NCBI GenBank assembly: GCA_900319795.1
Contig: ONPU01000005.1
Location: 41,438-105,437 of the forward strand
Length of the DNA: 64,000 bases
From: an uncultured Eubacteriales bacterium
GTDB taxonomy: Bacteria; Bacillota; Clostridia; Lachnospirales; Lachnospiraceae
Direction of reading: 5' to 3'
Shown here: one piece after another, positions 11,297-64,000 of the stretch
How the letters are laid out: each line of letters begins with the position of its first letter
Numbering within the stretch: position 1 is the stretch's first letter
Translations under genes and position numbers: made by a program
Notes under the pieces: model-generated
What the model saw: the letters and a program-made list of their open reading frames with translations, nothing else
Database searches by the model: none
Told to the model about the DNA's origin: nothing

Positions 11297-13141
11297 TTGA
11301 GCTGTAAACACCGAACCATCAATATTCTGCTTTGCGGTTTATTGATGGTGTGTTTTTTTATACTGATTTCTTTTGAACAGCCTGTCAGTGCGGCTGTGTC
11401 TTTAAAGCGGGTTTCATTTCCCAAGACGAAATCTGTATATTCAGGAACTTCCGCGACATTTAAAGTAAAGGCATCCGGCGTAAAATCTTCCAAAATCTGT
11501 TGGAAAAGCAGTAATTCCAAAGTTGTCAAACTGACGAGGAAGAAGGGGAAGAGCTGCCGTGTGAAATTCCTGAAGGGCGGGAATGCGACTGTCAGCTGCT
11601 ATATAAAAGGCAGGAAGAAAAAAACGCTGATTCGATGCCGGGTCAAAGTCACTGTCTGCAAAACAAAGCTGAAAAGTGCCGGTTTTGACAAAAAGACCGT
11701 TCATCTTTATATCGGGGATATCTATCGGAATAAATTAGCTCTGAATCCGAAAAATGCCGTTGTAAAGGATCAGGTTCGTTTTTCCTCTTCGAAGAAATCC
11801 GTAGCCTCGGTCGGCGTGGATGGAACGGTATATGCAAAAAATGCCGGCACAGCCGTCATTCGGGCAAAGGCAATCGATGGTTCCGGCATTTCGAAGAAAT
11901 ACAAGGTTGTTGTTCACAGGATTTCATTTCCGTCCGAGTCGAAGACGATCTATCTCAATGAGCAGTATAAATGTACTCTCAACGGAAAAACGGGAGCTGC
12001 TTCGGCTTCCGGAATCCGCTGGTCTTCTTCAAATGAGTCTGTTGCAGCAGTCAGTTCAGGCGGTAAAGTAACTGGTAAAAAACTTGGGAAGGCTATAATT
12101 ACTGCGAGAGTAGACAATGCCAAAGGCCAGAGTGCTTCCTTTACGGTGAATGTTCACTACCGGATCAAAAAGGACAGCACGCATTTCATAGCGCACAGAG
12201 GACTTAGCGCAAATGCGCCCGAAAATACCATACGCGCATTTGAACTGGCCGGCAAAGCCGGATTCTGGGGTGCGGAAACAGACATAAGGAGGACTAAGGA
12301 CGGGCACTTTGTCCTTTTGCATGATGCTACATTTCAGCGGGTATGCGGGAATCCGGGAAGACCCGAAGAGATGACTCTTGAGGAGATTAAAAAACTCCGG
12401 ATCATCTCCGGCAATAATCTTGATAAATATGCCAACGATCCGAAGGCCACAAGGATCGCAACTTTAGAAGAGTACCTTGGCGTCTGCAAAAAATACGGCA
12501 TGGTACCTGTGATTGAGATCAAAAAGAAATATGATCACAAGATGGCGGAGAGGCAGATTCCGGTGACACCGACTCCTGAAATCACTCCAACACCTGAGAT
12601 TACCCCAACACCTGAGATCACTCCAACACCTGAGATCATTCCTTCGCCTGAGATTACTCCTTCTCCCGAAATTACTCCGACTCCGGAAGATTCCGGAGAT
12701 CCTGAACCTGAACCCGATCCGCAGCCGGAACCTAATCCTCCGGGACCATCCTATATCACGGAACTGTATGATCCGGAAGCGGAGGAGATGCAGGATCTTT
12801 ATCGTATTACGGCGTCTAAAATGGGTGAAAATGAATGTGTCTTTATAGATTTTGACTATAAAACCCTGATCAAACTGAAAAATGAGATCCCGAAAAAGGA
12901 GTGGCCGAGATATACGTTCCAGTATCTTTCGACACAGTTCAGCAGTTCTCAATGGGCTGTATGTTCCGCAAACGGATTTGACTTAAGTCTCAATTACCGG
13001 AAGCATTCACCGGAGCTTGCTGCGGCACTCAGAAAACAGGGAGCCGCTGTAGGCTTTTGGACTGTCAACAAAAAACTATCCGTTGAACAGATACTGTTCA
13101 ACGGAATAGATTACATCACTACGGATATGAAATACTGGTAA
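11297..13141 (+). CDS. Exported Ig-like/glycerophosphodiesterase protein with an interrupted barrel
   Basis: A 614-residue secreted protein. The TTG start has GAGGGG six bases upstream. A signal peptide (about 1-32) is followed by three Big_2-like Ig domains (about 33-120, 121-205, 206-290). A GDPD barrel follows, with HRG (His300-Arg301), Glu327/Asp329 (ETD) and LLHD; this family hydrolyses glycerophosphodiesters. After VIEIKKKYD the barrel is interrupted at about residues 420-480 by a Thr/Pro/Glu-rich tract of seven 6-residue units plus a PEPEPDPQPEPNP tail. It resumes with ENECVFIDFDYK and ends GFWTVNK...GIDYITTDMKYW. No sorting signal or wall anchor seen. It follows hisF by 13 bp but is functionally unrelated. 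Confidence 0.88.
   Translation: MSCKHRTINILLCGLLMVCFFILISFEQPVSAAVSLKRVSFPKTKSVYSGTSATFKVKASGVKSSKICWKSSNSKVVKLTRKKGKSCRVKFLKGGNATVSCYIKGRKKKTLIRCRVKVTVCKTKLKSAGFDKKTVHLYIGDIYRNKLALNPKNAVVKDQVRFSSSKKSVASVGVDGTVYAKNAGTAVIRAKAIDGSGISKKYKVVVHRISFPSESKTIYLNEQYKCTLNGKTGAASASGIRWSSSNESVAAVSSGGKVTGKKLGKAIITARVDNAKGQSASFTVNVHYRIKKDSTHFIAHRGLSANAPENTIRAFELAGKAGFWGAETDIRRTKDGHFVLLHDATFQRVCGNPGRPEEMTLEEIKKLRIISGNNLDKYANDPKATRIATLEEYLGVCKKYGMVPVIEIKKKYDHKMAERQIPVTPTPEITPTPEITPTPEITPTPEIIPSPEITPSPEITPTPEDSGDPEPEPDPQPEPNPPGPSYITELYDPEAEEMQDLYRITASKMGENECVFIDFDYKTLIKLKNEIPKKEWPRYTFQYLSTQFSSSQWAVCSANGFDLSLNYRKHSPELAAALRKQGAAVGFWTVNKKLSVEQILFNGIDYITTDMKYW
12566..12691 (+). repeat. 18-bp coding repeat (TPTPEI units) inside the GDPD domain
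   Basis: Seven in-frame 18-bp units: four TPTPEI, then IPSPEI, TPSPEI and TPTPED. The first four are nearly identical in DNA, so the tract could expand or contract by slippage without shifting the frame. Confidence 0.9.
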
Positions 13142-40801: not shown

Positions 40802-41880
40802 TTGTCTTGGATGACCTGCATCGCGACCGTAGCGTCCGCGGAGTAATAGAACTGTGACTCCGGAATGCCTGCCGCGAGGGCATCGTCGACTGACGTATAG
40901 CCGTAATTGCCAAGCAGAGTTTTGAGAGCATTCTGATAGTATTCGCTGTCACGCGTGATGTTCTCTTTTGCCAGAATTGCCTGTGAAACCATGCAATATT
41001 TGACATTGCTTAAGATCATTTCGTTGAGTGTTTCCTCGGTCATACCGAACAGAGCGGCGATTTCAGCCAGCTTTTCATCCGGAGAGTCAGTCTTGCCGGA
41101 TTCTTCTTCAGAAGCGGACGCGTCTTCTGTATCTGCAGTTTCTTCGCTGTCGGCTGTATCTTCTGTGTCAGCAGTCTCTTCGCTGTCAGCTGTATCTTCT
41201 GCATCAGCATTTTCTTCGCCTTCTTCATCGTCCTGATTGTCCACATAAGAGCCGTACTGATCGATGTAAGACTGCTTCCAGGTATCGATGAGGCTCTGCG
41301 GATATTTGAGAACTTCGGACGTACTGACAAGCTCGGCGAAAGCGCTGTCTACGGACTGATAGGCGACGGAATTGACGGTAACTTCAAAGAGAGCCTTCTT
41401 TCCAGCCAGATTTTCCTGACCGTAATCTTCCGGGAAGGTGACGTTGACATCGACCTGATCTCCGGCCTTATGCCCGATGAGCTGTTCTTCAAAGTTGTCG
41501 ATAAAGGATCCGGAACCGATCACCAGGTCATATCCTTCGGCGGTGCCACCGTCAAAATAATCTCCGTCAATGGAGCCGGCAAAGTCGATATTGGCAGTCA
41601 TTCCGTTTTCGATGACCGTGTCCGGACCGGCGTCCAGCTTGATGCCCTTGTATTCTCCGAGCTTGATGAATTCATCCACATTGTCAGCGGTCATTTCGTC
41701 ACTGCTTGTGTTTGCTTCGTCAGCCGGGAAACCCTGCACTTCGGAAGCGGATTCCTCGGTGGATTCGGTCGTCTCGGATTCGGTCTCCTCCTTGGCCGGG
41801 GCAGTGGCATTGCTGCCGCATGCGGCAGTTGTAAATACCATCAATGAGGCCAGAAGAACGGCCATGATCTTTCTTTTCAT
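40792..41880 (-). CDS. FKBP-type peptidyl-prolyl isomerase lipoprotein resembling trigger factor
   Basis: 362 residues. Lipoprotein signal peptide with lipobox near Cys20 (FTTAAC), a Thr/Ser/Glu-rich linker, then an FKBP domain (about 85-170: [54 protein letters not shown]) very like that of the cytoplasmic trigger factor in this same window. The C-terminal part recalls the trigger-factor/SurA helical arm but is interrupted by an acidic repeat (41123-41220). Probably an extracytoplasmic folding factor anchored to the membrane. Last base of its stop is 4 bp from the convergent neighbour. Confidence 0.88.
41123..41220 (-). repeat. 36-bp acidic coding repeat in the isomerase lipoprotein
   Basis: Two adjacent 36-bp units (41123-41158 and 41159-41194, 32 of 36 identical) and a partial third encode [12 protein letters not shown]-type segments. 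In frame, so length change would not break the gene. Confidence 0.85.
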
Positions 41881-63173: not shown

Positions 63174-63566
63174 TTGGCAAGCGAAAAGTTTTATGGAACC
63201 GGTAGAAGAAAAAGCTCTGTCGCAAGAGTTTACCTTTCTCACGGCACAGGCAAGATCACGATCAACAAACGCGACATCGACGATTACTTCGGCGTTGAAA
63301 CTCTGAAGATGATCGTTCGTCAGCCGTTTGGTGTCACAAATACAAACGACAAGTATGATATCAATGTTTTCGTACATGGCGGCGGCTACACAGGCCAGGC
63401 GGGCGCGATCCGTCACGGACTCAGCCGTGCTCTGTGCAAGGCAGATGCAGAATATCGTCCGGCACTGAAGGCCGCCGGCTATCTTACGAGAGATCCGAGA
63501 ATGAAGGAACGTAAGAAGTACGGTCTGAAAGGTGCGAGACGTGCGCCGCAGTTCAGCAAGCGCTGA
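63174..63566 (+). CDS. rpsI: Ribosomal protein uS9
   Basis: 130 residues. [29 protein letters not shown] and the C-terminal [18 protein letters not shown] tail that reaches the P-site. TTG start after AGGAGGGTA. Confidence 0.97.
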
Positions 63567-63590
63567 TCGAGACCAAGAGATCATCGAAAA

Positions 63591-63625
63591 AGCCCGGAAA
63601 TACGCCATTTCCGGGCTCTTTCTTT
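63591..63625 (+). terminator. Intrinsic terminator after rpsI
   Basis: AGCCCGGAAAT / ATTTCCGGGCT (63591-63601 with 63607-63617), loop ACGCC, followed by CTTTCTTT. Confidence 0.95.
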
Positions 63626-63667
63626 ACCCAAATCTTTTTGATTCCTTTTCGAGACTTTTGAAGAAAA

Positions 63668-64000
63668 TTAGCCTAAAATCGCTTTCAGATCCTCTTCCGG
63701 AGTGCTGATCGGTGCAATGTTGTAGTTTTCTACAAGGTAGCTCAGCACATTCGGAGAGATAAATGCATAAATGCCGGGAGCGAGGGACCGAGCTTGATAT
63801 TCTTTATACCAAGGTATAAGAGTGTCAGCAGGATACATACCGCTTTCTGCTCGTACCAGGAAAGGATCATGGAAAGCGGGAGCTCATTGACACCGCAGCC
63901 AAACGCATCTGCAAGTGCGACTGCAACACGGATCGCGCTGTACGCGTCGTTGCACTGACCCATATCCATGATGCGGGGCAGTCCGCCGATCGTACCAATA
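63668..64000 (-). pseudogene. hcp: Hybrid cluster protein (hydroxylamine reductase), 3' end, frameshifted
   Basis: Hcp acts in nitric-oxide/hydroxylamine defence and carries an Fe-S-O hybrid cluster. The gene runs off the right edge. The visible C-terminal part reads [32 protein letters not shown] and [14 protein letters not shown], typical of Hcp. Then GCATTTAT is duplicated in tandem (plus-strand copies 63759-63766 and 63767-63774), shifting the frame and stopping at 63742. Removing one copy restores ISPNVL, NYNIAPIS and TPEEDLKAILG with a stop at 63668. It may be a recent inactivation, a slipped repeat or an assembly error. Confidence 0.8.

Follow-up and report, generated by a model that had tools for sequence, protein, structure and literature searches.

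Near one end of a 64-kb stretch of DNA (the window), the gene hcp carries a short tandem duplication that disrupts its reading frame. The question was whether this reflects a genuine mutation of the sampled strain, a reversible switch of the protein's C-terminal end, or an error of assembly. Positions are window coordinates unless a contig or locus is named, and hcp reads on the minus strand.

The duplication and the reading frame of hcp

Direct reading of the sequence showed that GCATTTAT is present twice, back to back, on the minus strand at 63759-63774, with the first copy in reading order at 63774-63767 and the second at 63766-63759. Tandem Repeats Finder returned the same interval (period 8, 2.0 copies, 100% match), in agreement with the preliminary description of this locus. 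With both copies in place, the zero frame of hcp (63742-63999, open at the contig end) terminates at a premature TGA at 63744-63742, 8 codons past the motif LPAF. The expected tail, about 30 residues, is preserved in a different frame (63668-63766, minus strand), which ends with a TAA at 63670-63668. Both the early stop and the readable tail had been described before and were recovered as described. A tblastn search with an intact relative likewise placed residues 431-508 in one frame and residues 500-536 in another. Two exact period-8 tandems were observed in the 64 kb, where 15 first-order Markov resamples contained 1.13 on average; the bare repeat is thus within chance, but the breaking of a conserved frame is not.

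The last ~136 bases before the early stop were scanned and contained no X XXY YYZ heptamer. Translational rescue is therefore not indicated, and programmed -1 frameshifting was dismissed.

By its profile matches, the gene encodes hybrid cluster protein, also called hydroxylamine reductase or prismane. The 85-residue fragment matched PF03063 with an E value of 5.6e-34 and 118.1 bits (cut-off 27). The last 79 residues ahead of the break matched NF003658 (E 2.8e-44, 151.7 bits) and TIGR01703 (E 5e-41, 140.8 bits), the whole-protein cut-offs of 367 and 360.8, respectively, being missed because the query is a fragment. Type VI secretion Hcp was discarded, since the profiles that matched belong to hybrid cluster protein. 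Like the known proteins (8cnr, 1gn9, 1e2u), the window copy has the conserved LGPSLPAF and WYEQKAV; it differs from them in that 8 residues take the place of the last 30 and in that the 5' part is absent, as the contig ends. The glutamate of WYEQK aligned to position 490 of 8cnr (alignment and position count), so that the hybrid cluster keeps this glutamate ligand (Glu490 in 8cnr numbering), while the C-terminal domain falls short of full length. A hybrid cluster protein study (PMC10210160) names glutamate 490 and gives nitric oxide reduction as the function to which recent work points.

A convergent open reading frame at 63174-63566 on the plus strand is rpsI-like by its sequence. Between the stop codons of the two genes, an inverted repeat found by eye (63591-63617) could serve as a shared two-way terminator. 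The stretch 63174-63700 had DNA matches in 32 of the 42 genomes of the genus, its own genome included.

The 3' end of hcp in related genomes

Relatives were collected from four search sets. Of 61 genomes, 25 matched; of 42 genomes of the genus, a set that overlaps with the 61, 14 did. Among 397 genomes of the family, 102 matched, and 25 places, including the window's own, were used as loci from this set. Named genomes contributed the 80 top-ranked of 583 confirmed stretches. The named-genome sample is skewed towards intact genes because the ranking goes by similarity. The comparison comprised one genome per species, so that the species of the window was represented by this genome alone.

Seven loci contain the exact doubled 8-mer, and every one of them is the same place of this genome; no second carrier appeared among the matches taken as loci. 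The stop 8 residues past LPAF was likewise confined to the window (1/133 distinct hcp 3' regions). As none of the 132 others ends there, the possibility that relatives naturally stop early was dismissed. In 132 of 139 locus rows from outside the window's own place, a tail of 29-35 residues follows LPAF. When lesions were scored by this tail length and by gaps of at least 10 residues, 130 of the 133 distinct regions had a tail without lesion, a figure that includes one region cut by a contig end and some 5'-truncated remnants with a normal tail.

The other two lesioned regions belong to close alleles. At the DNA level, the nearest relative lies on a 7.7-kb contig of another bin (G020:C92, locus L127); it has a single copy of the 8-mer, but carries a 63-bp in-frame deletion that takes out the stretch containing the residue that aligns with Glu490 of 8cnr. 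The next-ranked allele (G035:C62) has a 19-bp frame-shifting deletion. Outside the indels, the coding part in the window and that of G020:C92 are one base apart ahead of the duplication and one base apart behind it. Because the tail from the duplication to the stop is only one base off the closest single-copy allele, the suggestion in the preliminary description that the change is recent is supported.

Of eight close alleles of the genus that are not remnants (G000, the genome of the window; G035:C62, C140 and C122; G020:C92 and C3; G008; G026), 3 thus have an indel within the last ~250 bases. Not counted among the eight were three 5'-truncated remnants (G011, G033, G035:C65; 99.3-99.8% alike over 2.6 kb) and seven rows of more distant copies with 54-58% identity (G016, G027, G019, G013, G009, G006, G018), the frame break in G018 being a run of Ns. 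For control genes, pieces on one contig were found in 4 of 38 genomes with a match for pckA (G013, G023, G026, G032) and in 3 of 37 for gdhA (G013, G026, G061); these counts may include N gaps, leave out rows with only 'stops inside' and, for gdhA in G026, rest on a distant paralogue. Comparison of hcp alleles with control genomes gave p = 0.052 by Fisher's test, the units being alleles on one side and genomes on the other. The clustering of lesions at the 3' end of hcp is weak evidence and only suggestive, because control genes of the genus are also fairly often broken; in view of the p value and of the unlike units, we do not claim a hot spot or recurrent decay of hcp. A broader scenario, in which indels recur at the 3' end of hcp in the genus, within an operon shared across species, and thereby inactivate a nitrosative-stress enzyme again and again, with transfer supplying the replacement, strikes us as quite improbable.

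A 2.6-kb stretch common to three genomes of the genus (L025, L026, L034; 99.3-99.8% alike) contains an 87-residue C-terminal remnant of hcp. In genome RUG12857 (L076, CACZQT010000009.1, locus positions 2273-2599), hcp is reduced to its last 109 residues; unrelated sequence precedes them within one open frame, and a frame that we take, by its look, to encode a Crp-type regulator comes after.

The contig end and the missing part of the operon

Window base 64000 is the final base of its contig (G000:C13, 105437 bases), 226 bases away from the duplication, and hcp is represented by its last 333 bases only. Neither the 5' part of the gene nor any other Prismane match was found in the bin (23 contigs, 82% complete). 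In G020:C92, hcp has neighbouring frames that resemble a ferredoxin and a Crp-type regulator, and which we assume to form an hcp-ferredoxin-crp operon with it. The two ends of this operon matched two contig ends of the window's genome: C13 ends in the 3' part of hcp, and C11 ends at base 352940 (L141) in the 3' end of the crp-like gene, each ~99% identical to G020:C92 outside indels. The bin yielded no match to the 2.65 kb in between. Because their ends match both ends of the operon, C13 and C11 are probably chromosomal neighbours.

The same match at both ends, together with the missing middle, points to an assembly ambiguity: an operon shared by two populations is a place where a short-read assembly could break. 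C11 stops exactly 99 identical bases beyond its last difference from G020:C92, as would fit a contig built from short reads in a de Bruijn graph with k near 100; the corresponding 111 bases of C13 do not fit exactly.

Past both stop codons, the flanks of the G020:C92 operon had no match in this genome, and the rpsI stretch is merely ~75% alike between this genome and G020. A near-identical operon in two bins with such different rpsI DNA hints at recent sharing of the operon within the genus, by transfer, or at misbinning of the 7.7-kb contig. In the remainder of that contig, only positions 106-571 of L127 matched this genome, with 91% identity, at C4 (L142, G000:C4:48-512); the adjoining frame is presumably ParB-like. 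G020 also has a second hcp operon (L128, G020:C3:56000-66000), which adjoins rpsI in reversed order relative to the window: the crp-like gene is the direct neighbour of rpsI, and hcp is the more distant one.

Origin of the duplication

We consider it rather probable that the duplication is a genuine, recent loss-of-function mutation in hcp of the sampled strain. An 8-bp tandem duplication would have arisen recently in that strain and shifted the frame, so that 8 unrelated residues take the place of the last 30 of the C-terminal domain; the resulting enzyme would most likely be unstable or inactive, and the duplication would have no role as a switch. The host operon, hcp-ferredoxin-crp, seems to be common to different species of the genus and not intact in every lineage. 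This reading is supported by the two exact copies, by the restriction of the doubled 8-mer and of the early stop to this genome among the loci examined, by the single base of difference from G020:C92 on either side of the duplication, and by the other 3' lesions (63-bp and 19-bp deletions) in two close alleles. The lack of any other gene in the window that the codon-usage tiling reads as split, and the fit of the C11 end to a k near 100, also speak for it. In its single-copy relatives, preserved downstream frame and single carrier, the locus is like other pseudogenes caused by a short-tandem-duplication frameshift, although here we infer the presence of the duplication in living cells. On the other side stand the single carrier itself, the 226 bases that separate the site from the contig end, and the fact that the terminal gene is the only one in the window that looks split, as read from a codon-usage tiling without a homology check of every neighbour pair.

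An assembly or consensus error is the most serious competitor, though a distinctly less probable one. Wrong overlap, scaffolding or gap filling would have created the second copy where unique sequence gives way to an operon of which two populations have near-identical versions. The contig ends at base 64000 and at C11:352940, their ~99% match to G020:C92 and the missing 2.65 kb would all be expected from such an error, and faults do occur in hcp, since the N run in G018 is flanked on both sides by the same short sequence (by eye). In contrast, there are no Ns at the window site, and the rest of the window has no gene that the tiling reads as split. Moreover, an exact 8-bp tandem is shorter than the usual k-mers, and in a de Bruijn graph with k near 100, a path through the 16 bp would require reads that carry the tandem. 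A frameshift next to an assembly break needs a read check before it is called a switch. Taken alone, a common enzyme gene that is broken in a single copy where its contig stops carries little weight.

The preliminary description had also proposed that the duplication might switch the tail on and off by slippage, and this part found no positive support. Tandem units are able to slip, the frame of the tail is preserved, and, as in simple-sequence phase-variable genes, the units are coding and have a length that three does not divide. Here, however, there are just two copies, and no other locus examined has the exact doubled unit. The absence of a lesion in 130 of 133 distinct tails and of an X XXY YYZ heptamer before the stop also argues against a toggle of the C-terminal tail by gain or loss of one unit. 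To our knowledge, Hcp, a metabolic enzyme, lies outside the usual class of contingency genes. We regard phase variation as improbable. A literature search by title (hybrid cluster protein, indel errors in metagenome-assembled genomes, phase variation by tandem duplication) yielded no such case among the matches listed.

Least probable of all is a transposon scar, in which an element has gone and left both copies of its target site: several insertion-sequence families duplicate 8 bp, and by eye there was no microhomology at the junction, but clean excision that leaves both copies is unusual in bacteria. The families searched were ISL3 and IS256. No ISL3 transposase was found in the genome, which led us to set aside a target duplication of this type, as we did for the IS256 type, for which the genome has a single transposase fragment (G000:C2:12302-12553, a 120-aa frame) with a partial match to profile positions 26-109 of 379.

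Elsewhere in the window, tandem repeats of 18 and 36 bp lie at 12575-12678 and 41123-41219, respectively, inside coding-looking frames.
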